From Candidatus Obscuribacterales bacterium (lineage in GTDB: Bacteria; Cyanobacteriota; Vampirovibrionia; Obscuribacterales; Obscuribacteraceae), in contig JAGVKG010000058.1 in NCBI GenBank assembly GCA_020050685.1, forward strand, positions 62,001 to 126,000: a stretch of 64,000 bases of DNA. The letters run 5' to 3'. The position numbers and the translations under genes were made by a program. Shown piece after piece: positions 18,660-64,000 of the stretch (positions are counted from its first letter, which is position 1; every line of letters starts with the position of its first letter). Below the pieces are notes generated by a model. It was not told where the DNA came from, did no database searches, and saw nothing but the letters and a program-made list of their open reading frames with translations.

Positions 18660-18665
18660 ATATAC

Positions 18666-19157: not shown

Positions 19158-19164
19158 ATAAGTA

Positions 19165-22983: not shown

Positions 22984-23053
22984 ACCTCCGGAACATTCAG
23001 CCAATCTGTAAGTCTATAAAGCTATACGGTCGTCCTTGACCATGAGGGTGTAC

Positions 23054-24185: not shown

Positions 24186-24642
24186 GTTTGCTCCTCACTA
24201 AATTTTCTGACTAGTCTTTTCGTTGAACGCGTTTGAAGTTCTTTTTTAAATCTAACTGCCTGGAAACTAATTCTGCTAATCAAATAGCGATTGTGACAAT
24301 GAAATTTGACAATCAAACAGAAAATAATCGACACGATCATCCCTCCAATGCCCTCGCAACCGGCGTCGAAATGCAGGCGCAAATTACGTCTCGGAGTTTT
24401 TCTTTTTAAGTAATAGATATATAACAAATTGTCAAGCGCAAGCTGGGCAAACCTCTTGCGCGTTATCGGCCTCAGGAGGAAGATAGAGTTAGCTAACACG
24501 GGGGATAAGGTCAATTTGCTAGTTGGAGCTTTAGGAAGCAAAGCAAATATTTGACCAGGTGGGTTAGTTATAACGGTATCGACGTTCGGGTTAGATTTCG
24601 CTTTTAGCAGCGCATCAGCGCACAAAGAACGCAAAACAAAGC

Positions 24643-24666
24643 AACAACTAGTTCTCACTAGTTGTT
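24643..24666 (+). repeat. perfect hairpin 1 in the giant-gene leader
   Basis: AACAACTAGT (24643-24652), loop TCTC, ACTAGTTGTT (24657-24666): a perfect 10-bp inverted repeat 126 bases upstream of the start codon. It lacks a T-run, so it is not a classic terminator; it may be a protein-binding site or RNA stem. Confidence 0.75.
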
Positions 24667-24716
24667 AGCATCAGTCGTAGGGGAGACGATAAATCTCAAT
24701 TGAATTGGTCATGAAG

Positions 24717-24791: not shown

Positions 24792-27700
24792 ATGACAGTG
24801 CAACATACCCAGTTGATTGGCTTAATAGTTGTCTTAACGGTGCAACTAATTTTCCCACCGGCAATGCTAGCGCAATTCAGGGAACGCCGTGAACAAGCCG
24901 CAATGCCCGCCGCACCAATGGCGGGAGCTACCGCACAGACTCCCCTTAATCTTGACCTAACTTCAACCATGCAATCCGTTTCTGCGGCCGCCTTGGTCTC
25001 ATCCGGCCAAGTCAATATAAATGTAGGGGGCCAGGTTCGCACTGTCACCCCACAAGACATGTTGACGCCGGCAGAATTTGTGGCAGCCAGCCAAGTTATG
25101 TCTGGTGGTGCCCAAATGCTCAGACTAGGAGCCGAAGGTCAAGCCGTCAAAGGCCTATTTTCCTTAACCGGCAGCTTGGCGGAACAGGTCGGCAACTTAG
25201 TCATTCCTGAGTCAGTCAAACTCTTTCAAAATTTTGGCACCAATTCTATTGTAAATATATCCGGCGATCTCACCAATTCAGGTAAAGTTTTTGCTTATTC
25301 AACTAACCCCCAAGTGACAAACGCAACCCTTAATGCATCCAACATATACAATGCAGCCAGCGGTCTGATCACATCTACACTCCCCGTTGATAGATTGACC
25401 GCAGGCGCATCACAAACACTCGATCTAACCCTAAACGCTCTCCAAAATATCGTTAATGCCGGGACAATCACGAGCTCCGGCAATCTATTTATGAATGCTG
25501 CCTCGATCACAAATCAAGGCATGCTTGCTGCAGCCGGCAATCTGTCGTTAGCTGCCAGCACCTTGCAAAATGCAGCTGGCGCGCAAGCTGTGGCGCAACA
25601 ATCTATGTACGTCAACGCAGCCAACTTAGTCAACTCCGGACTAATGAGTGCTGTGGCAGGAAATTTAGCTGTCACCAATTCGAATACAGACCAAGCAATG
25701 AATGTCCTGAACACAAATGGTGTCATGCAAGCTTTAGCTGGAGAAATTTCATTTAGCGTGCCTGATTTGCTGGTCAAACAAAATATGACTGTCACAGGTG
25801 GAAACTTATTGGCAAACGAATTGAACTTCAATAACGGCGAAGGTCACTTGAACGTCAACGTTGTCGATGCACTAGGAGTGATTAACGTGTATGCCGGCAC
25901 TGCCGAACTGGCGGTGACAGAAGGCACTCATGGCATGACCATTGATCAATTCGTCATTACTGGCGATCCCAACCTCACTTATAGTGGTGGCGGCAATTAC
26001 ACTTCGCCAGCATTTTCTTCTCTTGGTGGCTTTGTCAACATTGATACTACTCAAGGTGCCAGCCCCGGATCAATCACATTTACAGGGGTGATTGATACCA
26101 CAAATACTGTTGCCGGCGGCGATGCCGGTAGTGTTACCCTCAAGGCAGGAACCTTTATAAGCTTGCAGGGAATCAACGCTTGGGGACGTGGTGGCGCAGG
26201 TGGTGCCGGCGGTGATGGTGGCGATGGTATTAGTGTAGTCGGCGGGCAAGGAACAGCGGGCGACCTTGGTTTTGCTGGTGGAGCCGGTGGTGACGGCGGT
26301 AGCGTCACCTTAACAGCCTATGGCACAAACGGTTCCGGACAGTCCATTATAGTGAACGGTTCAATCAACACTTCCGGTGGTGGCGGTGGTGGTGGTGGCG
26401 GTGGTGGCGGTGGTGCTGTCGATACCTTTTTGCCAATTTCAGGTGGTAGTGGTGGCGCCGCTGGTGCAGCCGGGCTTGCTGGTACGATTCAATTAAACTC
26501 TGCTGGCACGGTCAACGTAACCGGTAGCTTAATCTCAGCCAATGGTGGCTCCGGTGGAGCCGGTGGATTGGGTGGCAGCGCCAACAATACGAGCGGTATC
26601 ACATCTGGTGCTGGTGGTGGCGGTGGTGGCGGTGGCGGCAGTGCCGGTGGTGCAGGAGCACTTGGTGGTGCTGGTGGTGGTGGTGGTGGTGGCGGTGGAA
26701 ACGCCTTCACGCCAGGAGGAGCAGGCGGAGCCGGTGGCACATCAGGAGTAGCCGGTGGAAATGGCAGCAGCGCAGGTAGTGCTGGAACACCTGGTATTTG
26801 GGGCGGCATTGGCGGCAGCATTGGCACATCAAGCACAGGTGGAGCTGGTGGCGCCGGTGGTGGCACGGGTGCTCTTGGCACCACACCAATTAATCCGACA
26901 TCTAATCCAGCTCGCGGTCAACCGGGAGGCAGTGGCACGTTTCCAGCCACAAATGCCGGACGCACCATTACTATTACTGGTGGCACTCCTAACAATCCTT
27001 ATTTAGTCAGCGGCAACTATGCTACTGCTGGTGCATCAGACAAAGCAGCTGCCAGTATTACTGCTCCTTCTACGAGTGGCATGGTGAGCATTACTGGTGG
27101 AACAGCCGGCGTAACCATTAACTCGATTGGGCAAGTTGTGATTACCGAAAATACGCTTTTGAAGGTGATTCAAAACGGTGACTTAGTTACTCCCGCCGAG
27201 TGGGTAGCTGCCATTCAAGAAGGCCGCACGGTCGCGCAAGGCGGACAGAAAGATACGACTGGACAAACGATTGTTCTCAATTCAAGCGGCAATGCTACAA
27301 GCGGTACGTTTACGATTGGCACCAGCAATATTCCAGGAAGTGATTTTTCTTACTTGAACTTGCCAGCCAATGTAACTGCCACAGTTACTGCGCCAACACT
27401 TCGCTATACCAATTCAACTAACACCGTAAATGTTGATGGTACATTAACGTTTACAGCAGCGACAGGCACACTCACCGCTAATACGGTGAATGTCTCAAAT
27501 GCTACAGCTAACACCAAGATAAACAACTCCACGGCCGGGTCAACCTTGATCCTGCAGCCAAACAGCGGTAATTTAACTACATCAGGAAACGGTGATGTGA
27601 CTGCACCAAACCTGACTCTGCGCACAACAGCAGGCAACGGCAGCATCGCCATTGGTGCGGCACTTAGTGCTACCAACTTAACCGTGAGCGCAAATGGCTC

Positions 27701-30700: not shown

Positions 30701-33700
30701 AAAAAATCTTTCGCTTTTGCAGAGCACGATGGCCGGTGGCAGTATAACGTTGACCACAGGGGGAAACAATTCCGTATTCGTAATGGGGAACAACTTCCAA
30801 GCGGACCATCTTGTGTTTAACACGAAACAATTCCAGACATCTTCACACTTTGGAACTGGTGTAGCCATTTCAGCTAATCAGTCTATTACAGTTCAAAATG
30901 CCGACGGTGTCACTATAGGCAACTCCTTTAACTTCACAGCCCCGACAATCAATATCAATAGCAGCAATGGTTCAGTTGTAGCAAATCTCAACAAGGTGAC
31001 TGGTACACTAAATGTGACAGCAGATAAAAACATTCTGGTCTCATTCCAAGATTACTCAAATACACCAACTGTCAATGTTAACTCCACTTCCGGTTATTCT
31101 GTTCAATCGACGACTGATTTTTCGTCTCACAAACTTTTCATAGCCGCTGCATCGGTGCAAAACTTTGGCAATGGTGCTCTCATAGTTCTCAATGACAGCT
31201 TAACACCGGCTGGCGTTACCATGGGCACCTTGGGTGGTGCTTCGCTCACTGGGAACCTGACCATAAATAACACCGCCGGCGACTTAGTCCTTCATATCAA
31301 CCCCAGTACTGGATTGTTTGTAAGCGGCAACATCTCCGTTACAAATAGCGGCGGTAATATGGTGGTCGATGGCGGAGTGCCTGGCTTCGGTACATTTAAC
31401 GGTCAGGGACAAGTACAAATTGTAAATACATCCGGCGATCTGGTAATCAACACCGGCGGGGGTTTCAAAACATCCAGCGCCACTCAGGGTGTGAGCGTAC
31501 AAAATACGTCCGGTGACTTTGTGATGATGGCCAATTCCATTGTCTCCAATGGTGCATCCGTATACACCACAATAAACAACGACAATGGCAGTATTTTGAT
31601 GAGTTATGGTTCTCAATTGGGCATTGAAATTTTCAATAATCAAACCTCCGTTACCAACGCATTTGGAGACATTAGGAATTTAGGAGGTCAAATATTGGGC
31701 GGCTCACTTTCAGTAACAAACAGTGCAGGCGACATATTTACCTCAGGCGTAATGGCCGGTAATCAGCAAATCACCGTAACTAATACCAATGGGAATATTA
31801 CACTGAATGCCTTGAATGGCAGGGCGGGGTTCATTCGCCAAGATGGCGCAAGTACTACCACAGTAAGAGTAAATAGTTCCGGTAATATACTTATAAGTGA
31901 CGGCTCTGCCGTCAGGGCAAACTCAGCTCCCCAAATTTTGCTGTCAAACACTGGAACTGGCAATACGATTGTCACCAATGCTTCCGGACTGATCGGAAGT
32001 GCCAGTGGCAGCATTGAAATGAGCAACACTAATGGCTTGCTAGTAATCAGCAATTTGTCCGTTGTCATACCCAATCAACCGGCGCCCAATATAGGCAACA
32101 TAATATTGTCTAATGGTACCGGCGCCATCGTTATCAACAATGGTGCGCTTCTAGAAGCGGATCAATTAACAATTACTGGAACTGTATCGAATTCAATCTA
32201 TATTAATCAAGCTGCTTCATTGCGAGCCAACGCAATTACGATGAACAATACTGGTGGCGCTGTCTGTGTGGACACCTCACCGTTTTTCAGACAGTTTATT
32301 ACCATCCCTATTCCCGATAATCCGGTGATGTTCCTTTCTCAATTTGCACCGCTGACAATTAACAGCACTGGCGATATCTCGATTACCGGTTATAACGTAC
32401 CGCCCGGAGTGTATCCTCTTTTAAGTACGCCTATAGTTGCCAGTGGCAGCGGCATCAATAATCTCATTCTCAATAGCAGCCAAGGATCGGTTTGGGTTCA
32501 CCAAACTTTTGCACCGGTTGTCCTATGGGGTCCAGCTTCCTCTGCCGCCATTGGTGGCTCAGCAGCCGGAACTTTCTCTGTGAACATAACAGATCAAAGT
32601 TTTATCGCCGGTAGCATCACCACCAATCAAAGTGGCGCCGCAGCTGATGGTTCAATAACTCTAGTTGCCGGTGGCTGGCCAGCTGGATTTGCCACCTATC
32701 TTACGGTTAAGGGCGGAGCTCAAATTTCAGCTAATAAAGGCAATGTTCTTCTACAGAATGGTGATGGTACTTTAGGAGCGATAAACATTTTATCCGGGCC
32801 CTCGCCTGCACAGATGACAAAAATTGAAGCTACTAGCAGTGTGAATGGTTTGGGAAATGTATATATAGGATTGGGTAGACCACCGTTTGCAACTACCAAC
32901 GAAAAGTTTACTGGATTTGATTCAGCCACCAACATGACCGTGAGCAGCACAAACGGCGGGCATGTATATGTCAATAATGGCGTAACGGGCTTAGGTTCAA
33001 CCACTACCTCCAGTGCAAATGGTGGCACAATCATCTACCGTGGACCGTCAGCCTCTAGTATCACCATCGGTGCAAATGCACTAGTTTCCGCTACAGCACC
33101 GGCTAATAGCGTTGCCTTGCCGCCAATTCCGCCACCACCTTGTACCTCATGCGGGGGAGCAACGCCATCGGCAGGGGCATATTCTCTCAAATTGTATAGT
33201 TTAGATTTTACAGATCCTAACTTGGTTAACATTGCATTGCTTATGCAATCTCAAGGGCGCGTGCAAGGCACGTTGATAACTGCCGGTGGTATCGCTACCG
33301 GTGGCAATGCAATTATTCAACCGAACGACTTGGAACCCACGCTCACAGGACAGAATATCCCCAGCGGTGTGACCATTACCATGGACAGCTTCCTTTCTGC
33401 AAATCCACTTAATTTTTCGATCACAGGCTCGAGCTACACTAGCCAAGCGCTGCTGGGTGGTACGCATGAATTTACTGGTTCCGGTACGGTGGCCACACTT
33501 AACTATACTTCCACAAACCCGGGTCCTCTATTGGTGGTGGCACCGACTGGTTTACTGACAAGCACTAGCAGTTTGACAGTTTCCGCCGATAGCGTCAGCA
33601 ATTCCGGGACAATGCAAGCTAATGGTGGCACTTTGTCGATGACCACGACAAGTTTGACCAATAATGGCAATATTGTTAGTACGGCTTCCGTAGGTACGGG

Positions 33701-36700: not shown

Positions 36701-39700
36701 CGGCAGCGGGGATATTGGTGTAGGCGATCCAATAAATACATCCGCGACACTACTGTCGGCAAACACCACTGGTGGTGGCAATGTTCTAGTCAACACAACT
36801 GGCCCAGTCAGCTTAAGGGAATCTAGCGCCGGACAAGTATTTGACCTCACAGCCAATGGCCACCTGACTACAATTGGATCATTGTCTGGGGGCTATGTTT
36901 ATCTGACTACAATGGCCGGATCTGGTGGCAACCTGACCATTGGCTCAAACGTCACAGGTGCAAGCGGCGCTACTTTAGTTGCTGATTGTCCTGCCAAAGT
37001 GGAAGTAACTCCTCTCGGCAGTGTGCTTGCCGGATCTGGCGGTGATGTGCACATTACCACGAGTCATCTGAGCAACAATGGCTTGATTGGTGGTGGTACT
37101 CTAACCACCTGCGAAGATTGTGGAACCGGCCTACTTTTGGATGGCGGTGGCACCTTTACCGGTGGCGCAATTACCATTCGGGTTAATGGTAATAACGCCT
37201 TATCATTTGCCGGCAACGAGACTTTCAGTGCCGCAAGTTCGGGACAAGTTAGTTTCTTGGCCCAATCGCCTGGTGCTTCCATGGTCTTTTATCCAAATAC
37301 CAACTTAACAGTCGGCTCCGGAAACATGCTGAGAATGAGCTCTCCCAATTTCACGTTTGGGGCAAATAGTACGATCAATACATTTACCAACCTGGTAATG
37401 ATAGATCCACACACAGCACAAACTATGACCATTACGGCACCATCATCGGCAACACCGGCTCAAATTCAGACAGCTGGTGGAGCAATTCATGTTTTATCCA
37501 GCGCCATTGTTGTATTCCAAGCCGACACGCCGTTTACTTCATCCAAACTGAATCTGCTTGGCGGTCAGGTGACTGTTGAGGCACCAGTTGGTGTATCCAT
37601 AGGTTCAAATATCGGTCCACAAATGACCTTGGCTGCCGACAACAATGTGATTGTCACAACCCCACTTTTGGAAATGCGTAATCTCTCAGTATTAAGTACT
37701 GTTGGTGCTTTCCCCAACAATCACTCAATCAACATCGGCAGCACGACAATGGGAAGCGGTGCTGTGACCATTCGTGTAGTTGACGCCGTCGGTCCAGGAG
37801 CAACTATTACTGCTGGAGGCGGAATGTTAGGTGGGCCAATAAATATCACTGATGGCTTGGTGGTTTTTGACGCCACAAATAGTGCAGGCAATCCAAGCTT
37901 CGGTGTACTTAATTTCTCTGGTGGTAACGTAAATATAACCACACCAGTGGTCGGCAGCATATTGGGCAGTGTGCTTGTCAAAGACAATGTGAGCATATCC
38001 AGTGACCATGATTTGAACATTGTCACATCCAAGTTGACAATGCACAACGGCTCAAACTTGAAGACAACACATTTTACGCATCCCATGCCAGTGACGCTAG
38101 TCACTGCTAATTTCTCCCTCACTTCAACCGCACTTGGCACTTCGTTAACCGTGGTCCCTGTTGGTACAGCCACCATCGAAACAGAAGCTGGTGGCACTAT
38201 GACCATTCAGCCATACATGGATGAACAAGGGCCAGCCCAGCTACCTTTAGGTGGTAACAATCTCACCTTTGGTGAATCACCAGTAATTGGAACACTTTAC
38301 CTCAACAACGCTCCAGTTACGCTTTCCACAAATGCCAATGGCATGATTACCATGGAGCAAAATACAACAATTGTTGCTAATAACGGAATGAGTATTCACA
38401 CTCCACATTTGGCCATGTACAACGGCTCCGAGATTCGTACTACAAGTGGCAATTTGAACATAGATAGTAATGGCAACAGTTTATTGACGATTAGCGGCTC
38501 CGGAACTTCCACGATTCGCTCCTCTGAGCTACTACCAGACTCACTCAACATCAGCTCGCCTCAAGATATTCTTTTTACAGGCACCTTTTGGCATTTGGAT
38601 CTCGGAGGGTCAAATGCATTTGTCACGGCTGGCAACGGTGTGACGATCGGTGATTTGGTTCATGTGAGCGGGACCTCTGGTAGTCTCACTGTGTCAACAC
38701 CCAATTTGACATTGGGAAGCGCCTCGACATTAGGGTCACTGGCGGCAACTACACAAGTAAACTCTAACGGATCTTCACTTTTAACAGTTTATTTGCCCAG
38801 CTTGTTTGACATGGCCACCCTTGCCGGTAGTTCCGTCTCGATTGCCTCGTCTGGTAGTTTGACATTTGCCACCACTGGCTTCAATGCTGATGGTGGGTTG
38901 ACAATGCACACTACCGGTGGAGTGACTCTTTCGGCTGCAAACAATGGCACCACAACACTTGGTCAAAACATTGAGCTGTATGCCGACGATGATGTACAAG
39001 TAAAGACTACTGTGTTAGACATGGGCGCAAACTCCAAGCTTAGCTTATCAAATTCAATGTTTGGCACAAGCAATTTGGATGTCACATCCTCTACTATGGG
39101 AACAAGTTTAACGGTGAAGACTCCTGATTATGCCAGTGCCACCATGCAAACTGCCGGTGGGGGCATTTCCTTTAGCGCCGAGACCGGCAATGAATTGCGC
39201 TTCTCGATGGCTTCCGGTTTTGGTAGTTCTGGCACGCTCTATTTATATGGCGGACCAGTGGTAACTAATTCGCAGTATCAAAACACTACTGTTGATGCTG
39301 GGGTTTCATTGGTTGCAGACAATACAGTCCAAATGACCTCTTCAAATGCCGCCATGGACAACTTCGGTTCAGTGACAGGTACAGACCTGAATCTATACGC
39401 GACATACAACTTGAACACAAATAATCTAACAGCCACAAACGGCTATGTGCGCGCCTATAGTTCTGTGTCCAATCTCACAACCCTTGCCGGATCATACATT
39501 TCTGCCAACGAAGGCAATGTTGAACTGGCCAGTGGCAATACTTCATCTGGAATGATCTCGCTTGGTGACAACTCGACGGTTACTGCCTATGGTTCAAATA
39601 ATGATGTGGGTAATGTCTATGTAACGGTTGGCAATGTACCACCAACGCCCACCACTGGCACCAATGCCAATGTCAGCCAGGTTCGCCTGAATGGAGGCAA

Positions 39701-42700
39701 AATTTACCTGGGTGCCAACAACATAGATGCACAGTCACCAACCAGCACATTTACTTCGGATGGCTCCAAGATTATCTTTGATACCAATGGGCTACCTGCC
39801 TCATCTATATATGTTGGTGGCAACACTACTATTAACGCTACCAATCCGCCAGATTTGGTTTTCCTCGACAGTCTTGATTTAACACACGTGTCTGTAACCA
39901 CTACTATCTTGGAGATGCAGTCTCAAGGAATAGTCGGCGGCACACTGATCGTCGACGGTTTAGGAGTAGCCATTGGTGGCAATGCCATAATTGATCCAAC
40001 CGATTTTTCTACACTAACAATTACGGCTAAAAATATTCCAGCCAATGTGACAGTGACATTGCTAGACTTCAATGCCACAACTCCTCTGACGGTGGATCTC
40101 ACAGGTGGCAGCAGCACCACGCAGGTAGTGATTGGAGGGACCAGTCAATTTGTTGGACAATTTAGTCCGTCTGACGCCGTGTTGAATATCAACTCAACCT
40201 TGGGCGGAACTGTCATGGCTGTTAGTGGCACTTTGAGCTCTGACGGCTCTCTTGCAGTCACCGCCAATGGTGATCTTGAAGTCTCTGGTACCGGCACATT
40301 AAGTGCAAGCACCAACTTGTCTGTGAATACAACTGGTAATATTTTGCAAACCGGATCTAATGCAATGATGACTGCCACTGCAATGAACTTACAATCTGGC
40401 GGCGCGATTGGATCATCGGCCCAAAGTCTTAACACATCAACTTCCAGCTTAACGGCAACTGCCGCCAGCAATGCCTACATATATAACACAGGCAACACCG
40501 CGCTTAATACTTCATCGGCAGCCGGTACATTCCAAATGGTCAATGTCGGTCACCTCACGCAAAGCGTAGGGTCAACACTTTCGGCCAACCAAATACTGCT
40601 TGCCACCACTGGTGCAACACCTGGCGTGTTGACCTTGTCCGGCACGCTGACAAATTCAGGCACCGACAATAAGGCTCTCACCCTGATTTCCAACTCTCAC
40701 ATTACCACCACCGGATCGTTCGGTGGCAGTCTCAACACTTCCAGTGCGACTGGTAATGGCGGCAATATTAGTCTTGTTGCCGGCGCCGATTCCACCTATG
40801 ACCAGGGAACATCCACCTTAACCTTGACGGGCGCTTCCGCTACTGGCGGTGCAATCACATTTGTGCCGCTGGTTTCAGCGATAAGTGTCAATTCACGCTC
40901 AACTCTGGCATCCGGCAACGGCGGCAAAGTTGTTATGATGGCATTTACAGGCAGTGATGCCGGCTCCGGTGCCATCACCATGCCATCCACTAGTAGTATT
41001 ACCTCATTTGGTGGTGGCACAGGAAGCACCAACGGCTCGGTAACATTGCTGGCAAACAATGTTAGCACTGGCACCATCGACACGAAAGGCGGATCAGCCA
41101 ATGTAGCCTTGCTCGGTGGTGACGTAGTTGCCCTGGCGCAAGACCCAACTCTTCCAGGCACCGGTGTAGCAGTTAGTTCAAGCAGCGGCGTCAGCACATC
41201 CTGGCTAGATCCTTACTCTAACGCCACAGCATTCCCTGGATCGTTTAGTGCCACTACCATGAGTGTCGGTGGCAACCTAATCCTCAAAGGCGCATCACTA
41301 AGTGTTCCCAGCAGGGTTACCAACGTTAATGGTGACATCATCATAAACACAAGCGCCAATCTCACCTTAAACGCCTTTTCCAGTAGCGCCATAGCCAATA
41401 CCTTCTCACTTGATCCACTGCAAGGCTTAAATGGATCCTTGATTGTCAATGCCGCCGGTGGACTGACAATCAATAATTCAACCCAAATGTCATCCGGAAC
41501 CAGTGCATCCAAGTATGTCTCTCTAACATCCAGCGCCGGCAATATCAACTACACCTATGGCATCTTCACGACAGGAGGTTCAATAGCCTTAGCAGCGGCA
41601 CATAATATTGGTCAAGCTTCGGGTGGTGGTGGTGGCACAATCGACGCTGTTCGAGACAGTGGATCGGGTAATGGTGGGACTGTATCCATAGTAGCCGGTG
41701 TCAATATAGCAACACCAAACGACCAGACTGTGATTTTGAGCGGTGCCTCCACAACAGGTGGATCGATCAACTTGCCTTCTGTCTACGCCATCAATACTTA
41801 CGCCATGACTAGTGGTAGCGGTGGCGATGTAAATGTAATGGCCTTTGCCGGCAATGACGCGGCTTCCGGGCAAGTTTCACTGTCAGGCTCCACTTATACT
41901 CAGACACATGGTGTAGGAGGCGGAGCAAGCGGTAACCTAAGTGTTTATGCCGGTGCTTCCTCTGGCACTTCGATTACGTACAATCTTGGTTACTTAACTT
42001 ACAACGGTACAGCTCTCGCCGGAACCGGCAATGTTAGTGTCGTCACGGCACAGCCGGTAGTTAACGGCGGCACCCTGACTCTAACCAATGGTCTTACTCC
42101 CGCCAATGCATTCTCTGCAGGGACAGTGCAAAACGCATCCATTGCAATGAACAACGTCAATGGCAGTGACGCACGTGGTACCGTTGCCCTGACCGCCGGA
42201 CAAAACATTTCACACATGACCGGACTCGCCCGAGCTGCCGGCAGTGGTCTTACACCAGGAGCAACATTCACAGCCGGCGGTACTATTACAGCCAATTACG
42301 TCGGGCTTGTAGGCAGCGGCGTCACCAATGGTATTCTCCTTAATGCTGGTGGCACTATACAGACACAGGATCTAAATGCAGCTGCTGGCAATATCATCGC
42401 TACAAATAGTAGTGGCAACATCACGCTTTCTGGTCCAATAAACACAACAGGCTCTGGCTTCGTTGCAGTCACCACTCCAGGCAACATTACCTTCGGGCGT
42501 ACAGGCAATGGTGGCATCAGCACCGCCGGCGGTGCCGTTGCAATGGTGGCAAGCGGCAATATTACAAGTCAATCTAATTCCGGCGCACAAGTCGTTACCA
42601 GCGGAGGAACGGTAAATCTACTTTCTGGTGTCAACTATACTGGTTCGGGCAATAGCATTACAGTAACCGGTGCCTCCGCTACCGGTGGTAATATCAATCT

Positions 42701-45700
42701 AACCAGCATGAGCTTTGGCAGCTCCGGCATTGTCACAGCCAAGACAACCACAGGTGGTGTCGCCGGCGACATTAACCTAATCGCCTTTACAGATGGCAGC
42801 GGCGCACAAGGAACAGTTACCATGTCGGCAAGCGGCAGCGGCATGAACGCCTCAGGCGGTTCAGGTGGTGCCAGCGGCAATATCACGGTACTTGCTGGAT
42901 CACCGACAGCTAATCTCACCACCGGCTGGTTCAATACCAATGGTACCTCCACGACAGGCGGCAACGTTGTGATAAGCACGGCTACTCCTGTGATCAATGG
43001 CGGTAGCGTAACCCTCACCAACGCTGCAACGCCTAGCAATACTTTCAGCGCTGGCGCCTTACAAACAGGAGCATCAATTACAGTTGATTCAACAACTGCT
43101 AATCAAGCTGAAGGTTATGTATCAATAATTGCAGGACAAAACATATCTATAGGTGGCGGTGTCACGAACTCATCGGACACTGGCGCAACCAATGCCCTGA
43201 CACTGATCGCCACGGGCGGCACATTAGCTACCGGCTTCCTGACAAACAGCTTCGGCAATGTCTTTGCCACAGCCCAAGGGAACATGACAATAAGCGGACC
43301 AATCAACGTGACCAAAGCCGGTTCATTCGTTGAGCTAACCACGCCCGCCAATATAACCATGGGTGTATCTGGCAACGGCGGTGTATTTACAGCTGGCGGT
43401 CCGATCGCAGTTGTGGCCGGTGGCAATATAACCACACTATCCAATAGCGGTGCGCTAATTAGCACCAACTCCGGTGGCTCTGGGTCAACCGGAAGCGTAT
43501 CACTTCTAGCCGGCGCAGCCTATTCACAAGTGGGCAGCACAATCACAGTCACTGGTGCATCTGCCACTGGCGGCAAGATTGACATATCAAGCATGACCAG
43601 CGTCGGCGGCGGAGGGATTTCTACTGCTCGCACCACGGCAGGCTCTGTTGCCGGCAGCGTCAACTTGATTGCCTTTGCCGGCAGCGGCACTGGCGCTGGA
43701 ACAATTACAATGAATACGGGAGCCGTAATTAGCACAGGTGGTGGCAGTGGCGCCGGCAGCAGCGGCAATGTCATGGTCCTTGCCGGTGCTTCCTCAGGCA
43801 CACTGCAGACAGGCTACTTTAACACTCTGGGTAGCACCACCAGTGGTGGCAATGTTGTCATTGCGCCGGCAACCCCGATAATCAATGGTGGCAGCGTTTC
43901 AATTGTAAATGGTGCTACACCGAGCAGTTCCTTCAGCGCCGGCACTCTACAGACAGCGGTTCCTGTAGCTGTCGGCTCGACAACAGCCAGCAGTGCCAGG
44001 GGCTATGTCAGCATTACCTCTGGGCAATCAGTAGCAATCGGTAGCGGCGGCATCAATGCCGCATTCAACGTCGGAGCAAACAATGCCGTTACTCTCGCTG
44101 CGGGAACATCAGTCTCATCAGGACCAATTTCCAACATTAGTGGCAATGTCACAGCTACAGCTGCCAATGGCCCCTTAACCATATCCGGAGCCATGTTGAG
44201 TAATGCAGGCAACGTTTTCCTCAGTTCCACCGGCAACCTGGCAGTGAATGGACCCATGTCCGTGACTGCCTCAGGTGCCTACATTGAAATAGCTTCCGGT
44301 GGGAATGTAAGTCTCGGCATAGCTGGTAATGGTGGGGTGACAACATTCGGTGGCGCCATTGGTATTGTTGCTGGAGGCAACATCACTACCGCTTCTAATT
44401 CCGGCGCTTCATTTAGTACCGTAGCCGGCGGCTCACTCAGCGGTGCACCAATCACACTCGTCGCTGGTGCCGCCTTCTCAACAGCAGGCACAACAGTAAA
44501 CATCACGGGCGGTTCAGCAACTGGTGGTTTCATTAATACCTCCAGTATGACCAGCACTGCCTTTAACACTTCCCGTACCTCCAGCAATCAGTCAGGAGGA
44601 AACGTTAACCTGATTGCTTATAACGGAACAGGTACAAGTTCCGGAACGATCACAATGGGCACAGGCAGTCAAATGTTTGTCGGCGGCAATGGCACGGGAT
44701 CGGCCGGCAATGTAACCATGATCGCCGGTGGCGAAAGTGGCACAGCAATTTCATTTGGTGTAATTTCAGCCAGTAGCGGCGCCAACAACGGCAATGTGTT
44801 AATTGCCACCGCTGAACCCACTCTAGCTGGTGGTACCGTAAGTATGACAAATGGCGCAGTGGCCAGCAACTCATTTGGCGCTGGAACGACTGGACAAGGC
44901 TCTATAAACTTTGTGGGTCCGACATTCATTCAATCAATCAATGCCAAAGGTTCAGTTTCAATGACAGCCGGCGATTTCCTGACCACTGGCACAACGACAC
45001 TTAACAGTATAACGGCCGGTACATTCGTCAACCTTAAGGCAGGAACCGGAATGACCATGCAGACTGTAACCGCCAACAATGGTTCACTTACTGCAGTTAG
45101 CGACACAGGCGTGATTACTTTGACAGCCACGTCAGGTCTCCAATCGTTCCAGGGCAACACGACAATAAGAAATAACGATACAACCAGCGGCACCATTGTC
45201 ATTCAAAACAATGCTCAAGTCCGTGCTGAAAGCACCGTTACTCCTTTTGGTAATGTCTTTGTTACCATCGGTCCCGTACCAACTTTTGCAAGTCAAGTTA
45301 CCAATGCCAATTTTGCTGAGACAGAACTAAATGGCGGCAAAGTTTATCTGCTGCCCAATAACATCACTTTAACCAGCACCGGCAATGCCACCGCAGATGG
45401 TGCTGCTGTCGTACTGGCTACCGCGCCAGCCAATGCCAATGCCATTACCGTCGGTACAGGCGGTCCTCTGCAATTTTATGCCAAGTCTCCAAGCAACACG
45501 GTGACAATTGCCTCACCCACATTAGACAGCCTCGACTTTACAGATCCGGACGTCACCGGCCTCACTCTGCAATTGCAAGCGGCAGGTGTTGTTGGAGGCA
45601 CTCTGATAGTGAATGGCAGCGGTGTGGCTACCGGTGGTACCGCCATTATTGATCCAACTGACTTAACTAGTCTGACAATTACTGCCAAGAACATACCGGC

Positions 45701-48700
45701 AAACGTGACAATAACGTTGCAAGACTTCAATGCCACCACTCCTCTGACAGTAGATCTCACGGCTAGCAGTACGACCTCACAGGTACTGATTGGAGGAACG
45801 AGTCAATTCGTCGGACAGCTTAGCCCATCGGCAGCAGTCCTCAATATTACGTCTGTCTTTCCTGGTACGGTCATGGACGTGAGCGGTACCTTAAGCTCTG
45901 ATGGATCACTGGCTGTCACGGCAAATGGTGATATTCAAATGTCTGGCTCCGGTGTCATGAGTGCAAGCACCAATTTATCTCTAGATACAACTGGCAGTAT
46001 TTTGCAGAGCGGCTCAAGTACTGCGATGACAGCTACCTCGATGAATTTGCAGGCTGGCGGTTCAATAGGTTCCGTTTCTCAGAATATAATGACATCAACT
46101 GCTAACTTGGCGGCAACGGCTAGTCTGAATGCATACTTGGCCAATAACACAGCAATGACCTTAGGAATGTCATCGGCTGGTGGTACATTCTCTCTCACGA
46201 ATAATGGTGCGCTGACAACCAGTGGATCTGTCACAGGCAACGTGGTGAATATGACAGCAACATCAGCGCTATTAAATGCGGATGTCAGCGCCACAAATGC
46301 CTTGTCAATTACAACTAACAATTCACTGGCAATCAGTTCTGGTACTACCGTTAGCAGCTCTGCCGGCGCAGTAACTCTCACAAGCAGCACCTTTACCGAT
46401 GACGGTACGGTAAGCGCCCACGGCGATGTCACCATTCAGGGTTGGCAGAATTTGCCAATGTTTACTCTCACCAGCACCGGTACTCCCGGACCGATTACCT
46501 CGACAACTGGGAACATTACAGTCAGCGCACTACAGTATGGCGGTGTGACAATTGATGCACCATTTACCTTTAACGCCACTACAGATGGTGCCTCAATTAG
46601 GGTAATCGCGTACTCGAATGTGCTTGGTGTAAATCAGATCAACATCAACTCGGCAAACACATTCAATACTGGAGACAACGCTACTATTTCTTTCCAAGAT
46701 ACTTATTCCGGCGGAGTAAATTTGAATGCTACTCAAACTTACAACACTGGTTCCAATGCCACCATCAATATTAGTTCGCAGACTGGGCCAATAGCACTAA
46801 ATGCTACACAAATCCCGAGCGATTTCACTTATACCGGAACAGCACCCACAGTTTCTGTATCCGGCGGGAGTGTTGATCTAGCCAGCAACCAGTCATTATC
46901 CGTTCCAGGCACTCTCTATGTTTCAGCTGGTGGGACTATGAGCCTCAATTCCGGATCAACAGTTAGTAATTTGGCAGGCACGGTAACTCTTACCGCCTCT
47001 ACATTGATAGATAATGGCACTATCACCGCATACGGCGATCTGACCATTCAAGGTTGGCAAAATCTTCCTACATTTACTCTAACTAGCACTGGTGCTCATG
47101 GAGATATTACATCCACAACTGGAAACATATCAGTGGTTGGACAACCATGGGGTGGTGTGACAATTGACGCACCGTTTACTTTCAACGCCACTACAGATGG
47201 TGCCTCAATTAGGGTAATCGGCAATTCCCTTCAACTTGGCATAAATCCAGTCACCCTCAACTCATCAAATACCTTTAATACTGGTAACAACTCCACTATT
47301 TCCTTCCAGGATAATTATTATGGCGGCGTAGATCTAAATGCCGTTCAAACCTTCAACACCGGCTCAAACGCAGCTATAAACATTAGCTCTCAGATTGGTC
47401 CTATCAACCTCAACGTTTCGCAAGTACCAGGCGACTTCATTTACACTGGAACCGCACCTACCGTTTCTGTTTCTGGCGGTAGCGTTGATCTAGCCAGCAA
47501 TCAGTCATTATCCGTTCCAGGCACTCTCTATGTTTCAGCTGGTGGGACCATGAGCCTCAATTCCGGATCAACAGTTAGCAATTTGACAGGAGCGGTAACA
47601 CTCACCAGTTCAACATTGATTGACAATGGAACTATTACCGCCAACGGCAATCTCACCATTCAAGGCTGGCAAAATCTTCCTACATTTACTCTAACTAGCA
47701 CTGGTGCTCATGGAGATATTACATCAATGACTGGAAACATAACGGTGCTTGGACAACCATGGGGTGGTGTGACAATTGATGCGCCGTTTACCTTCAACGC
47801 TACCACAAATGGTGCTGCCATAAGGGTAATTGGCAATTCACTTCAACCAGGTGTTAATCCGGTCACAATCAATTCATCGAACACCTTTAACACCGGGGAC
47901 AACTCCACTATTGCCTTCCAGGATAATTATTATGGTGGCGTAGATCTAAATGCTGGTCAAACCTTCAACACCGGCTCAAACGCAGCTATAAACATTAGCT
48001 CTCAGACTGGACCTATCAACCTCAACGCTTCGCAAGAATCGGGCAACTTCACTTACACTGGAGTCGCACCTACAGTTTCTGTTTCTGGCGGTAGCGTAAC
48101 CTTGGCTGCCAATCAATCTCTATCTGTGCCAGGCACACTAAATGTTTCCTCGACATCAGTAAATCTTAATTCTGGTTCGTTGCTCAGCAGTACTGGTGGA
48201 GCTATAGACATACAAACATCGACCCTAGATCTCAATGGAACAGTGGCTTCTTACGGCAATTTGACCATTCGCAATTTAACTCATTTGGGTGTCCTTGATA
48301 TTACAAGCACAAGCACGCCAGGAACCCTTACTGCAGTTGTCGGAGACATAAGTGTTTATCAGGGAAATTATGGCACCTTGTCAATAAACGCACCTATTAC
48401 ATTTAATGCTACATCGAACAATTCTTCCATTACTATTTCAGGAAACTCACAGACAGGTACGGCAGTTTTCCTCAACTCCGATAATACGTTCAATACTGGT
48501 GATGGCTCGACAGTTACTATTCAAAGTCTTTATACGGGAATAGATGTGAATGGTTCCAACACCTTTAACACTGGTGCAGGTGGCAGTGTAAACTTTACAA
48601 CAACCTGTGCTAATGCAATTAACATTGCAGCCGACAGCACCCAGTCGGTTACAGGTGGTGCCTCATTATTGCTTACCACCGGCACTCTCACAATTGGCTC

Positions 48701-54700: not shown

Positions 54701-57700
54701 TAATCACAACATCACAATGAGTCAAGGCTCTTACGGTGGAGTGATTAGAATCAACGGCAGAATCGAATCGACAGCCACCGGCGATTATACGTGGGTGGAC
54801 AATGCTGCCGGTCATGTAAATATTTCACCTTCCGGCTCGATAGGTTCAATTAATATTCAACCCGGTACCACCATAGTCTCCGGCGGTCAGAGCATTAGTT
54901 TAGGTACTGTTGAAGGAAATGGCAGTGTCGTTCAGTCAGGATCAGGCACGCCCATGATTTTCGTACAGTTTGCAGGCAATGGTAACACAACGCATCACTT
55001 AATTCTCGACGGCGACTTAACGTTCAATGCCGGTGCAAATGGTTCGGTCTACATCAAATCCTCAGCGAATACTGGCTATCAAGGCATAACCGAATTAACC
55101 GACAACTCGACGATAACAGTAGCAGGCGGTAGCGACGTTGTGATGTCCTCACCGGTACTCAAATTCGGCGCTGATGCTTTGCTGGATATAGATCGGGCAA
55201 CTGGGAATGCTATCTTCTTTAGAGCTAACTGGGTGGGATACAATTTCAACGGTGCCCCCATTAATCCCGCATATGGTCAAGGCAGAGCTATCATCGGAAC
55301 GGAAGGCTCATCGGGCACCATTAGAACAGCTGGCGGTCAAATCCTTATCAACGATTGCTGCTCTGCCCCGATGTTGTTCGGCACGGATACCGGCGCCGGA
55401 TCCACCACGATTAATCTACTTGGTGGCAACGTTTCCATGCCAATAACCAATATTACTGTTAACAGTGGCGTCACCGTACAAGCCGATCACAATATAACAA
55501 TGTCGTCGGCCTGGCAACCTTATTTTACTGATCCCACCCCCGGTTCAGTCGTTAACAACGGTTTGATAACAACTTCTGCGGCAAATGGTTCTATCAGTAT
55601 GAGCTTTAATACTGGCGGCAATGTTCCGTTTGGACCGAATAACATTTCCGGCACAGGTAAATTTGAAGTGACGGGCACAAATGGAAATATTACAGTTAGT
55701 GAAACCTCATCTGACCAGACTTTGATATTCGGAGGAAACCTCACTTTCGATCCAGGCAGCAGCGGCTCTGTTACCTTTAGATCTACTGCGTCTGGCTCCG
55801 GCTTAGCATTTGCCGCCAACAGCGTACAAACCATCGCCTCTGGTGCACCGTTAACACTAACGACGCCGAACTTGACGATGTTTGCCAATTCACTCATTGA
55901 TGTTACGGCATCATCCGGAACAGGCGTAACCATGAATTCCGGTAACGCATCTCGTCCGATGGTTGTGACTATCGAAGCCGGTTCATCTGCAGAGATTCAA
56001 ACTGCCGGAGGTACATTCAACATTACGCAAGCTCTCGATCAAACACTGACATTTGCCAATACAAATCCAGCTGGTCCGCTCGCCATACTTAACCTCAATG
56101 GTGGCGATGTGAATATGACCACATCCGGCACTGGCGTGACAACAATCAATCCTTATGTATGCGTTGCCTGCGACAACGACATTAACATTAGCGGTGCGTT
56201 TGTTAACAACGGTGGGTGCTTGGAGTCCGACACCAACATTACATTCACTGGCATAACCGGCTTCACCAACAATGGTGACATTGCTGCAGGAGGTTCAATC
56301 AACCTGACGACTTCCGGGGATCTTACTGTAACCGGTACTGGCACACTTGATTCGCCGGCGATTAACTTCACCAGCACGAGTGGTGCCTTAGATGTTACTC
56401 AGGGGAGCATCCTTGGTGCCTTAAATGGCTCGGCCGCAACTACATTCGGTATCACAGCCAGCACAGGCAATTTGATGGTCGGCAACATGTCCGGGACAAC
56501 GGGCGTACTTTCCGCCGCCGGCACTCTTGATATTTCCGGCAATGTCACCACTACCTCTTGCTGCGCTTGTTGCATTGGTACATCGCTCAATTTGTACGGC
56601 GGTGATTTCAATTTGACCGGCACCGTAACCGCTCCGTCCGTGTCCCTGCTGCCACAGAACAACCAACAAATCGGTATCAGTGACGGTGTGGCAGCAAACT
56701 CTGCTCCATTTTTAGTCACAGAAGACGAACTGCTCAGATTTAACACGCCGACGCTCAACATCGGTGCGTGGTATCAAAACGGAGGCGTGTTGGTGACTGG
56801 CGATATTGATCTCACAACTGCTTCATTCACTTCCTTCAATATCACCAACGGTGGTAACGGCACCTTCGGCGGAACATATCTTGGCACAGGTTCATCAATG
56901 ACCTTTGATGGTGCTAGAACTTCGATTGGCATTACTGCAGGCGATATCTATACCGGCAGCATAGTCACTGCTAAAACTGGTGTTATAACTGCCAACGGGG
57001 TCATGCATGTAGATGGAGATGTTTCCACAACTACCTGCTGTGCCTGCTGTATCGGCACATCACTCAATCTATTTGCCGCTGACATGGATATTACTGGAAC
57101 AATTACCGCACCTTCAGTCTCAATAGTGCCGGTAAACAATCAACAAATTGGCATCACAGACGGCGTGGCTGTCAACGCCGCACCATTCCAACTCTCAGAA
57201 GATGAATTGCTGCGCGTTAATGCTTCAACTTTGAATATTGGTGCCTGGTACCTTTCAGGTGGCGTGCTTGTCACAGGGGACATTGACCTCACCACTGCCA
57301 ACATAGGTACCCTAAATGTCATCATGGGTGGCAATGGCAATCCTGGCGGTGATTATGTCGCAACGGGCTCTAACATCGAGTTCAACGGCACAACTTCTTT
57401 CAACGTTACCGCTAATAATCTCTACACCGGTTCATTCATTAATGCCGGCACTGCTACCATGTATGCAAACAATCTCCTCACGGTTGATGGCGATATCTCA
57501 ACAACTCAATGCTGCGCTTGCTGCTATGGCACGTCAATGAATCTATTTGCCTCGGATATATCCGTCACAGGTTCCATTGCTGGTCCATCAGTTCTAATTG
57601 CGCCGAACAACGACAATCAACAAATTGGCATCACAGATGGTGTTGCCACCAACACTGCCACGTTCCAGCTATCCGAAGCCGAGTTACTTAACATCTCCAC

Positions 57701-60700
57701 TCCAAGCCTAGTCTTAGGCAGATGGCATTTTGATGGCGGCTTCCAAGTCACAGGCGACATCGATTTGACTACAGCAAACATCGGAAGCCTTTCGATGGTA
57801 AGTGGTGGCAACGGCAATGATGGTGGTGACTATGTGGCAACTGGTTCCAACATCGAGTTCAACGGCACAACTTCTTTCAACGTTACCGCTAACAATCTCT
57901 ACACTGGTTCATTCACTAATGCCGGCACTGCTACCATGTATGCAAACAACCTTCTCACGGTTGATGGCGATATCTCAACAACTCAATGCTGCGCTTGTTG
58001 CTATGGCACGTCAATGAATCTATTTGCCTCGGATATTTCCGTCACAGGTTCCATTGCTGGTCCATCAGTTCTAATTGCGCCAAACAACGACAATCAACAA
58101 ATTGGCATCACAGACGGTGTTGCCACCAACACTGCCACGTTCCAGCTATCCGAAGCCGAGTTACTTAACATCTCCACTCCAAGCCTGGTCTTGGGCAGAT
58201 GGCATTTTGATGGCGGCTTCCAAGTCACAGGCGACATCGATTTGACTACAGCAAACATCGGAAGCCTTTCGATGATAAGTGGTGGCAACGGCAATGATGG
58301 TGGCAATTATGTTGCCACAGGTTCTACGTTGCGCTTGGATTGCGATCAATCACTTTCTATCACCGCCCAAAGTATCAACACTGGCAATGTTGTTGCCCAT
58401 AATCCGTCTTACAATGTCACAACTGGTAGTCTGACCGTAGACGGCATACAGCTTGATTCTTGCAGCCTCTGTGTCACCAGTCTCGATTTGATGAATACGG
58501 CTGCCGTGCAGCAAATAGTTGGATTGCAAACCCTTGGTTATCTTGATGGCACATTGCAAACATCAGGTGGTATCGCAATTGGTGGCGACATACTCATGAG
58601 CCCGTGCGGACCTGGCTGCGAATTGACGGCTGTGAATGTGCCAGCCAATGTAACAATTTCATTTGATGGTTTTGCAAACACGCCGGTCAATGTCACACTT
58701 ACTGGTTCAAGCACGACACCAAGCTTTATCCTTGGTGGCACGATGAATTTTGACAACAGCTCGGGGTTGATCAATATAGTATCTGATCAGGGAGGAACTG
58801 TGATGCAGGTCACAGGCACTGGTCTGCTTTCTGCAGACGGATCTCTCACCGTTAATGTTAATGGTGATGTCGCCATGGCAGGCACCATGACCTCCGCTGC
58901 CGATTTAAGTCTTACAACCACTGCAAACAATGGCAACATTGCTCTTGCCGGTAATCTCACCGCAAATAGCACTATGAACATAGCTGCTAACAGCTTTGGC
59001 AATATCACCCAGACAACAGGAACCCTTACCGCCGATGCAGTCGTTTTGAATTCACAGCTTGGCTCCATTGGCACATCCACTGATGCTATTTCCACAACGA
59101 CCAGCAATTTAACCGCCAATGCAGGAGGCAATGTTTACGTAGCGAACACCGGTTCGGTCAATTTGAGTGGAGCATCCTCAGCCGGTACGGGCAGTGCATT
59201 TTCGTTGGCATCAGTCGCCGATACAAGCGGTAATGCAACAATACACTTCCTTAACTCATCTACTATTACAACAGGTACTGGTGGTTCAGTTACTCTAAAT
59301 GCTGAAGCCATAAGCGCAGGCACAAATACAAGCATTACAGCAACGTCCGGGACAATAACTCTGGAGGCAACAGATGGCTCATTGACAGTTGGCAATGTCA
59401 GCACAAACGCAATCGGTACTGGGTCCGGAGGGGAGATCAGTATAACGGCAACAGGAAATATAACGACCGGCAACATTACCACTAATGCTGCAACGTCCGG
59501 CGACGCTGGAGCTATTACGCTAGACTCCAGCGGCGGTAGCATCAGCACCCTACTTGTTGAAGCCAGAGCACTGGGCACGGGCACTTCGGCTGGTGATATA
59601 AATATCACCGCTTTCGGAGATGTGAACGCTAATGGTAATAGAATTCGCACATTATCACGCACAGGCGGCACCCCTGGCGAATTAAACATAACTGCCGGTG
59701 GAAACATCAATGCTAGCTGGATTCAAACTTCATCGTTTAGTGGAGATTTACCTGGTTCAATCACAATAAGCTCAGGAGGAAATGTCACGGTCAGCAATTT
59801 CTTCTTCGCTAGCAGCTGCTGTTCGGTGACTGGTAATCCCGGCGGTGACATCACAATTACAGCAAGCGGCAACGTAACCGGATCAATACAAACCGTCGGA
59901 GGACTGGGTAGTGGTGACATTTATGTAAATGCCGGTGGCAACATCAACGGTATGGGCATAATTACTTCAGCGTCGGTTGGATCGGGCAATGCAGGCGATA
60001 TTACGCTAATTGCTGGTGGCACTGTATCCACAAATACTACCGGAGGCTCCGGTATCAACGCTTCTGGTGCCAACCAAGGTAACGGTACTGGAGACGGCGG
60101 GAATATAACGGTACAGGCTGGATCAGACATTAGCACCATGTTTGTCGCTGCTAATGCCAGTGCCGCCGGTAAAAACGGTGGAAACATAAGTCTAAGTACA
60201 GCCAACGGCGATATTCTTGTGACCTCAGCAGTATTTTCATCGGCCGCATTAGGCACGGGCGGCGACATCCACCTGCAAGCCACGAATGGCACCATTGCCG
60301 TTCAGAACAATGCTTGTACCGGTTGTGGGGCTGCCCCTCCCAACTCACTTATGGCAATAAATTCGTCGGGAGGCAGCGCAGGTAGTGCCGGAAACATCAC
60401 CATTGAATATTCATCAGCCGGCAATTTTGTCATCGATGGCACCAATCATACATTAACTGACGGCGTTGGTGGTGGCATTAGTGCCGCTACCTCAGGATCA
60501 GGTGATGGTGGAACTATTACGATCAGCAACTTGAGCGGAAACTCCAATATTACCCTGAGTGACACCATTACCGCCCAATCGGCATCCGGCACAACTGGTT
60601 CAATCAACTTTGTACAGCCTGCCGGTAGTTTCGTCACCGTAACAGGTAACAGCGTCGGAAATCTCGTTGGCACTGTCAATGCCACCGCCACATCCGTTAC

Positions 60701-63700
60701 CATGAACTTGCCGAATTCAGCAACGAATTTGACTGTCGGACAAATCAGCTCAACGAGCGGCAATGTATCATTGACTACTCTTGGTTCCATCACCGTGCTT
60801 GAAAGCATAAGCGCTACCTCAGGTAGTCTCAGTCTAGAAGCTTGCCCGGCAATTACAATCGACTCTCTAGCAACAGTTACCGGTACCGGGAACATCACAC
60901 TCACAACCGGACTGCTTTCTAATAGCGGTACCATTACCACTTCCGGCACCAGCGCAACAATACTGTGTCAAGAATGCGGTTCCGGTCTGACATTAACAGG
61001 AGATGGCAATGGTGTCTTCTCCACCACCGGTAGTGGCACACCACAGATCAATCTGCTCGTATCCTCTGGCAATGCCTTGAGCATAGATGCATCGTTTGCT
61101 TTCGATGCCGGCGCCAGTGGAAACGTTTACTTCAATGCTCTAGCCAGTGGTGCCTCCGTGGAGTTAGGCGCAAATACCACACAAAATATTACAGGCGTAT
61201 TGAATGTCTGGACATCAGACCTGACAGCTGAAGCAAACACTAACGTCAATGTTAATCAAGCTACTGGAACTGCGGTGAATATTTACTCTGGCAGTTCAAA
61301 CAATCCTTTGACGATTACATCTCCGGATGGTTCTGCTTTGACCATGCAAACCACCGGTGGTTCCTATTGGATCGGCGGATACAATACTGATTCTGTGACC
61401 TTTGCTAGCTCTGGTGGTTCCGGCACCTTCAATGCCTTTGGTGGTGATGTAACGACTCTTGCTGCAAACGCAGTGACCGTAGATCAAAATGCCACATTCG
61501 CTGCTGATACCGGCACGATGCGCTTGCTTACATATTCCACAACCGGCACCCCAACTATTACTGTCAATGGAACGGTAACATCATCGGCCGCAGGCAACTA
61601 TACATATGACAGTATTAACTCCTATTCCGGAACAACAGGTGCGATTATCCTTGAGGTCAATCTAAATAATGGCAATACCGGAACAAGCGAACAAGGAGCC
61701 TCGGGCTTAATCACTGGTACCGGCAGCATATTGCAAACTGGAACTGGAACGCCTTTGATAAGCTTGTCCGGTGGATGCTGTGATCCAAGTGAGTTACACT
61801 TCTCTGGAGATTTGACAGCGAATGCTGGTGCTGATGGTCGAGTTTATATTGAGCACCCAGGCTATGTGTTCTTGCCACCATTGGTTGCAGAATTTGATGA
61901 CAATGCCAGCCTAAATGTAACCGGAGAAAGCATGCTTGTTATGCGCGTGGCTGTGGTGAAGATGGGTGCCGATTCCTCGATTAATGTAGATCGCTCTACA
62001 GGCGAAGCAATTTCCTTCACCGGAAACTTTGTTTCTCAAAGAGCAATTCTTGTCGAGGACGGCGCATCCGCCACCATTAGTTCAGGCGGAGGGACATTGT
62101 CACTCTCGTCTTGCTGCTCCAATTCAATGACCTTCGGTAGCTTCGTGGATGGACAGGACGTTCCGCTGGTTCACCAAGTTAATTACCCGGGAGTTCTGGT
62201 CACCGACTATTACGATATCGTGCCTGGTCCGACCTCAGCAACAACCACACTAAATTTGACTGGCGGTAACACATCGGTCGGTGCTGCTACTGTTGTCGTT
62301 AGTGATGGCATGGTACTTTCTGCCGACAAGAACGTCGCTGTGAGCGCTTTCTGGAATCCATACTACGGTGATCCCGGAACGGTAACCAATAATGGACTAG
62401 TCACCACTTCCAATCCCAATGGATCGGTCACTGTCAGCTTTGCCAATAGCTACAATAATAACTCTACCTATTTGCTCGGAGATGGCACCTTCTCCGCAAC
62501 CGGTGGTGGCACAAGCAACATTACGATCACCGAGGCCACTGCCAACAAGGTCCTAACATTCGGAGGTAATCTCACCTATGATGCCGGCGCGACAGGAGCA
62601 GTTACCTTCGGTTCGACCACAAGTGGCAGCAACACCGGTCTAACCTTTGCGGCTGACACAACTCAAACGGTCGCATCTGGTGCACCGCTAACAATTAGTA
62701 CTGCCAAACTAACCTTCGGTGACAACTCAGAAATTGATGTCTTCCGTTCAACTGGCACAGCAGTTACAGTGCAGCCAGGCACGCCGCGACAAATGACAAT
62801 TACTGCGCCAAGCGATGGCTCAGCATTGATTCATACCAGCGGTGGTGCCATCGCCTTTACGAACTTCTTCCAGCAACCAGTTACGTTTGCGACCTCTGGA
62901 TCCGGAGCGGCCACATTAGAACTAGAAGGTGGTGCTGTTACGGTAAACAATCCGAGCATTACAGTAAACAGCGGCTTTACACTGCAAGCTGACAATAACA
63001 TCACAATGACAGCAAGTTACAACAATACTTGCGGTGGATGTACTACTTTACCCAATCTAGGACTCGTGAATAACGGCACCATCACTACATCGAGAGTGAA
63101 TGGCGTAATTACATACAACCTGTCGTCCACCACGACTAACCAAGGATTCTTGTCCGGCTCTGGCGACTTTTCCGTGACCGGTGGTGGCACAGCTGCCATT
63201 AACATAACCAACAGCACTTCTGCTGGAACGCTCAACATTAGTGGTGCACTCGAATACGATCCTGGTTCGACAGGTAGCGTGACTTTCACAGCCAATGCCG
63301 CAGGCTCTCGTTTGAACTTTGACGACAATACTGTACAGCGCGTTGAAAGTGGAGCACCAATGACCATTTCCACTCCGAACTTGCTATTTGGCTCTAATGC
63401 ATCACTTTATGTTGACAGAGCAACAGGCACAGCATTAACAATCAACGATGGTAGCGGATCCAACAACATGGTCATCACCATGGAAGCAGGCTCAACCGCA
63501 AGCATAACAACACTCGGTGGTGCTATCAATATTGCTCCGACGCCATCTACGCAATCTCTAACATTCGCCAACTCGTCAGGATCCGGACCGACAGCAACAC
63601 TACAATTTAATGGTGGTGTCGCAAACATAACCACGTCTGGTGCCGGTACAACTACCCTTAATTCGTTTGTGACTCTTGAATCCACCTTCACAAATAACCT

Positions 63701-64000: not shown

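Follow-up and report, generated by a model that had tools for sequence, protein, structure and literature searches.

A stretch of 64,000 nucleotides from a Candidatus Obscuribacterales genome (hereafter the window, G000:C1:62001-126000 of the source MAG, G000) carries, as the first-pass annotation of this DNA had reported, a single open frame of more than 13,000 codons; our analysis confirms this observation, reveals it to be an underestimate of length, and identifies the gene not as a single oddity but as a member of an order-restricted family with no fewer than 35 paralogues in this genome. We regard it as likely that this is a real gene encoding a Sec-exported, extremely long beta-solenoid surface protein within a large paralogous family that is, as far as sampled, private to the order, and a surface fibre for attachment or matrix is the best reading of its role. 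The Obscuribacterales are non-photosynthetic cyanobacterial relatives known chiefly through metagenomes and belong to the Melainabacteria/Vampirovibrionia.

The frame (Table 1) contains no stop up to the edge of the window and continues for a further 1,011 codons to the end of the contig (C1:129031), where it is still open after 14,080 codons counted from the ATG at 24792. Two TTG starts (24705 and 24711) precede this ATG, and an in-frame stop is found upstream at 24690. Under a first-order Markov model of this DNA, about 474 stops are expected in the giant frame, and under one that keeps the base composition of each codon position about 230, against none observed; each of the five remaining frames contains between 305 and 1,122 stops over the DNA of the giant gene.

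Table 1. Features of the giant gene in the window (window coordinates; the module HMM was built from the copies listed here)
Feature	Coordinates	Strand	Basis or remark
Giant open reading frame	24792..64000	+	13,069 codons in the window, stop-free
Sec-type signal peptide region (predicted), residues 1-29	24792..24878	+	hydropathy scan; equivalent in aligned paralogues
Conserved N-terminal head, residues 50-439	24939..26108	+	paralogue alignment, HMM, AlphaFold2
SLDF module copy 1, ~290 residues	28338..29231	+	alignment; HMM 381.7 bits
SLDF module copy 2	32712..33626	+	alignment; HMM 348.7 bits
SLDF module copy 3	39498..40361	+	alignment; HMM 399.8 bits
SLDF module copy 4	45138..46001	+	alignment; HMM 404.5 bits
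Three successive ~200-residue repeats, residues 7165-7770	46284..48101	+	translation; pairwise codon comparison
Tandem repeat, 477 bp x 2.1, 94% matches	57327..58324	+	copies differ by dN 0.008, dS 0.16
SLDF module copy 5, first half reduced	58239..58976	+	alignment; HMM 215.8 bits

As for the surroundings of the gene, the upstream part of the window (17724-22588) holds a division and cell-wall cluster composed of rsmH, a small ORF, a penicillin-binding transpeptidase and murJ, and an alpha/beta hydrolase (23036-23947) lies between the murJ cluster and the giant gene. An inverted repeat with an 11-pair stem (24642-24667), terminator-like on the minus strand, separates the giant gene from the minus-strand ORF that precedes it. 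Farther away on the minus strand are sepF (5293-5805) and a 1,145-residue protein (12854-16291) with an N-terminal TadE/G-like (Tad pilus) domain.

The earlier description of the product as giant, secreted and repeat-rich is borne out by its length, by its signal-like N-terminus and by repeats that show a periodicity. The hydrophobic segment of the putative signal (residues 3-29, ending ...AMLA-QF) is the sole stretch in 14,080 residues whose 19-residue mean hydropathy exceeds 1.6, and the same hydropathy scan detects no transmembrane-like segment after it in the part of the protein encoded on C1. The head that follows presents 34 invariant columns in an alignment of 15 paralogues and is modelled by AlphaFold2 as a beta-helix with an N-terminal cap (mean pLDDT 78, pTM 0.78). 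Its top Foldseek matches among PDB folds are the beta-helical exoproteins or secretion domains HxuA, HMW1 and EtpA, all of them weak (E 0.04-0.4, TM up to 0.43), and a PDB sequence search with the profiles of the head and of the class II C-terminal domain described below returned chance matches only. The head, of about 390 residues, appears to be new.

The body of the protein is rich in Gly, Thr, Ser, Asn and Ala and low in charge, Lys and Arg together accounting for 1.3% of residues, and about 7% of the sequence falls in usable tryptic peptides. Large hydrophobic residues alternate (autocorrelation at lag 2) and hydrophobicity recurs at lags 27-29 in two giants of the source genome and at lags 26-27 in a 25,007-residue member from another genus, a combination that fits the expectation for a beta-solenoid. 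Five copies of a module with the motif SLDFTDP are interspersed in the window protein; further paralogues share this module, as do members in other genera, and in many cases its first half directly precedes the C-terminus. The AlphaFold2 model of copy 4 is too poor to use (pLDDT 53). Clusters of cysteines, e.g. TTCCACCIG and CQECGSG, recur in a protein that is otherwise cysteine-poor (residues 10590-11100 among others) and could be disulphide or metal sites.

The suggestion that selection maintains the intact product also holds, since the repeat copies differ mostly by synonymous changes, with dN/dS values of 0.05 for the 477-bp tandem and 0.15, 0.17 and 0.16 for other comparisons, the estimates for the more diverged pairs (dS >1) being rough; such values point to purifying selection on the repeats. 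Because of this low ratio, and because other genera also carry long frames of this family, the frame is not the result of chance.

The stop of the gene lies beyond C1, very probably on a second contig of the same assembly, C64. The last 700 residues of the C1 frame have one other good match, at the end of C64, from which a frame reads inward and meets its stop after 1,237 codons. The first 245 bp of C64 share 84% DNA identity with the tail repeat near the end of C1, with no comparable match elsewhere in the sampled material, and the first 130 residues encoded by C64 match C1 at 70%, as against at most 43% for any other sampled family frame. Since these matches point to the C1 tail and to nothing else comparable, C64 very probably carries the final 1,237 residues and the stop of the giant gene, which would probably bring the total to at least 15,317 codons plus a gap of indefinite size, the two contig ends showing no exact overlap. 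C64 also contains a copy of the SLDF module and terminates in VVDTGDVYEDEEPGVVAQGN, an acidic and non-hydrophobic C-terminus, so that, if the proposed join is correct, the window gene would end in a VDTGD tag. In the same assembly, the contig ends G000:C16:1 and G000:C70:57393 (L041, L187) overlap by exactly 99 bases within one family gene, and when joined they give a class II product some 12,100 residues long; breaks within family genes are thus typical of this assembly, in which repeat arrays may, in addition, be collapsed.

The source genome (4.20 Mb in 70 contigs, 98.7% complete) matches the first 1,000 residues of the giant protein in 37 places. An HMM of the head, built from six sequences, identifies at least 35 frames bearing this domain at their N-terminus, a count that includes four giants dropped by HMMER's bias filter; these frames are scattered over many contigs and comprise 134,988 codons, or 9.6% of the genome. 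The longest measure 14,495, 14,113 (the frame of the window, open), 10,226, 8,837, 8,610, 7,186 (open), 6,972 and 6,195 codons, and the remainder run down to about 1,500 codons, plus fragments. One paralogue (C34:129585-173048) is complete at 14,487 residues, with both start and stop present, and a few are truncated (C52:21300, C70:34). Unlike other members, another head-bearing paralogue (G000:C13:136797-139118, L088) passes at a contig end into a long tandem repeat of proline and glycine (GPPDPP). Profiles from Pfam and NCBIfam gave nothing above cut-off across the whole giant frame, and the family is absent from both collections and previously unnamed. A literature search that fell short of most subscription papers returned neither a description of the family nor papers on giant or adhesin proteins of the Obscuribacterales, and Cyanobacteria go unmentioned in a survey of huge proteins.

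Family members end in one of two ways. In class I, the motif VDTG[DE] or a close variant lies 11-27 mostly acidic residues from the stop; searched as a DNA pattern, VDTG[DE] has 21 matches throughout the source genome versus 3 for the reversed control pattern, and in 17 of these 21 cases the match is followed, after 11-27 residues, by the stop of a long frame, mostly of the repeat type. Class II consists of a domain of about 225 residues ending in KMAACL..T..HGPYS, which looks FecR-like in the absence of any Pfam model backing the likeness, and which is also found in some short proteins; it occurs in 35 of 39 order genomes, the source genome included, and in none of 21 genomes outside the order. 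The head-bearing frames of the source genome comprise 20 of class I and 7 of class II out of 35, the rest being open at contig ends or truncated. Both conserved C-termini appear, like the head, to be new.

When the named genomes were scanned with the window's own head alone, no relative emerged, whereas an alignment of four paralogues recovered relatives, which are MAGs of Candidatus Obscuribacterales. The head is present in 29 of the 38 other order genomes, with up to 36 copies per genome, and in none of 21 class relatives that belong to other orders; about 290 further genomes of the phylum yielded a single marginal match (18 bits), and tblastn of the head against plasmid records yielded nothing. 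As far as sampled, the family would therefore seem to be private to Candidatus Obscuribacterales. The window member scores 499.6 bits with the head model, of which it is itself one row, and matches in independent genera reach E values down to 1e-138. The longest member mentioned above, G021:C2:174643-249666 (loci L175-L178), is complete at 25,007 codons, begins with ATG, lies without any N on a single contig of an assembly of about 10 contigs, and combines the head (E 2e-68) with seven copies of the module and a class II C-terminus; to our knowledge, this frame is among the longest bacterial frames known. Further long members with the same ends measure 15,075 codons (G010) and 12,520 and 10,865 codons (G021). 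In a quick tree of the heads, the window protein falls in a clade of 12 members (SH-aLRT 99) that takes in the 25,007-, 15,075- and 12,520-residue proteins, so that the subfamily of the window spans genera; other paralogues are partly grouped by genome, and the median end branch is 0.63 changes per site. In a relative from MAG SW_5 (L071, 9749-21181), a poly-proline stretch lies within a family frame, close to where the locus ends on its far side.

The manner in which these proteins leave the cell bears directly on what they are. They resemble the exoproteins of two-partner secretion (TPS), such as FHA, HMW1, HxuA and EtpA, in having a putative Sec signal, a head modelled as a beta-helix and a long beta-helix-like repeat body, and the window protein could be a classical member of that group (TpsA, FhaB-like) that leaves the cell through its cognate TpsB/FhaC channel; the structural matches of the head, its N-terminal position after the signal peptide and the Asn/Gly-rich repeats reminiscent of filamentous haemagglutinin all speak for this. 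Yet the TPS domain PF05860, positive in 114 of 244 phylum genomes, has no match in the source genome; hhalign of the head against cyanobacterial TPS domains gives probabilities of 0.3-1.1%; and ShlB (PF03865), present in all nine phylum genomes chosen as positive controls, is without a match in the source genome and in 31 of 32 order genomes, the remaining one of the 32 showing a sub-threshold match that overlaps the Omp85 gene. Since domain, channel and profile-profile similarity all fail, we do not file the family under TPS, an assignment that we consider improbable; by sequence it would not be classical two-partner secretion, and in shape it may be TPS-like. Apart from lacking the TPS domain and ShlB, it differs from the TPS exoproteins in its new C-termini and in lengths up to several times greater.

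Other routes find no better footing. No Pfam outer-membrane beta-barrel, the mark of a classical autotransporter (type Va/Vc), was detected on the window protein or at the C64 C-terminus, which closes with an acidic VDTGD tail; no Pfam RTX match occurs on the protein, and its signal-like N-terminus is at odds with a type I-secreted RTX adhesin; and the combination of a C-terminal LPXTG, a transmembrane segment and a positive tail that marks sortase substrates is lacking. One Omp85, presumably BamA, is encoded in nearly all order genomes (36 of 38 others), and the two without it are only 65-66% complete. None was found in the draft source genome, probably owing to a contig gap; an organism devoid of an outer membrane was considered on that account and rejected in view of the 36 genomes with Omp85 and of the diderm-envelope genes carried by Melainabacteria (PMC4040986).

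The remaining alternatives concern the function of the protein and the reality of its length. A matrix, sheath or S-layer-like structural protein, whose solenoids would pack side by side with no specific partner, would agree with the many paralogues of like composition, the missing binding domain, the share of about 10% of coding capacity, the low charge and the richness in Gly, Ser, Thr and Asn; lengths from about 1,500 to 25,000 residues and the divergence seen in the end branches of the tree are more in keeping with fibres that have diversified than with a regular lattice, and we rate such a coat as a minority possibility, less improbable than the TPS assignment. That the length is an assembly artefact, with separate repeat genes joined or repeats misassembled, is an idea invited by a MAG of 70 contigs in which breaks fall within family genes; it is hard to reconcile with 14,080 stop-free codons, with codon-level purifying selection between copies, with the complete 14,487-codon paralogue and with the four long frames bearing the same ends in two other genomes, and if repeats have been collapsed, the assembly understates the length of the true gene instead of inflating it, so we hold this explanation to be very improbable. 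We think equally little of a repeat frame drifting without function: the large variation in copy number and length and the few truncated paralogues might suggest it, but the low dN/dS of the repeats speaks against drift, as does the conservation of head and C-termini across genera.

Returning to the Sec-exported surface fibre, the Sec machinery would, to judge from the signal, export the chain, after which the head would start and cap the solenoid and the repeats would build the fibre, as the structural model and the periodicity suggest. A beta-helix rises by 0.48 nm per turn, so that 15,317 residues in turns of 27 would amount to about 270 nm, and fibres of several hundred nm could be formed. 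From their position and conservation, the C-terminal tag or the class II domain would sort or anchor the protein in place of a TpsB channel or a sortase, and paralogues of varied length would form an adhesive or matrix coat with which to attach to particles or other cells. More tentatively, and as a possibility that we would not call probable, the order may possess a previously undescribed system of its own by which megadalton beta-solenoid fibres are exported and anchored in a diderm without TpsB or sortase, based on the shared head and on two interchangeable C-terminal sorting ends, one being the acidic VDTG[DE] tag and the other the class II domain. As regards the initial proposal of an adhesin for cell-cell contact, its giant secreted repeat protein stands; Pfam and NCBIfam recognise no adhesive, enzymatic or anchoring domain, and it is from how large the protein is, where it presumably sits and how far the family has expanded that we infer an adhesion or matrix role.

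Giant surface proteins are nothing new among bacteria; the novelty here lies in an order-wide head, in two C-termini and in how much of the genome the family occupies. An Omnitrophota giant ORF of Velamenicoccus archaeovorus encodes 39,678 aa, reportedly with 42 transmembrane helices, and the giants of that group are reported to be poorly conserved (PMC10066038). Our family is like the Omnitrophota giants, in kind only, in extreme length, presumed surface role and few annotated domains, and unlike them in its conserved head and tail and in that nothing transmembrane-like follows the signal over the 14,080 residues encoded on C1. In the Gram-positive Apilactobacillus kunkeei, five consecutive genes encode Giant1-5, of 3,000-8,000 aa and up to 6% of the genome (PMC12863079). 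These too are a set of giant extracellular proteins that fill a large part of the genome, in contrast to which the present family has at least 35 genes over many contigs in a diderm lineage. The adhesin-like giants of Chlorobium chlorochromatii and SwmB of Synechococcus, which are reportedly surface proteins of more than 10,000 residues in photosynthetic lineages, are alike in size and kind only, the Obscuribacterales being non-photosynthetic.

These findings also bear on why such proteins may go unnoticed: with no Pfam or NCBIfam match and so little of the sequence in usable tryptic peptides, the family is nearly invisible to standard methods. Its conserved ends turn isolated giant ORFs into a comparative system, in which one can ask, across dozens of genes and across genera, how a diderm exports and anchors fibres of megadalton size. 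A family that takes up about one tenth of a 4.2-Mb genome, with members of up to 25,007 residues, must matter for the way in which these cells meet their surroundings.
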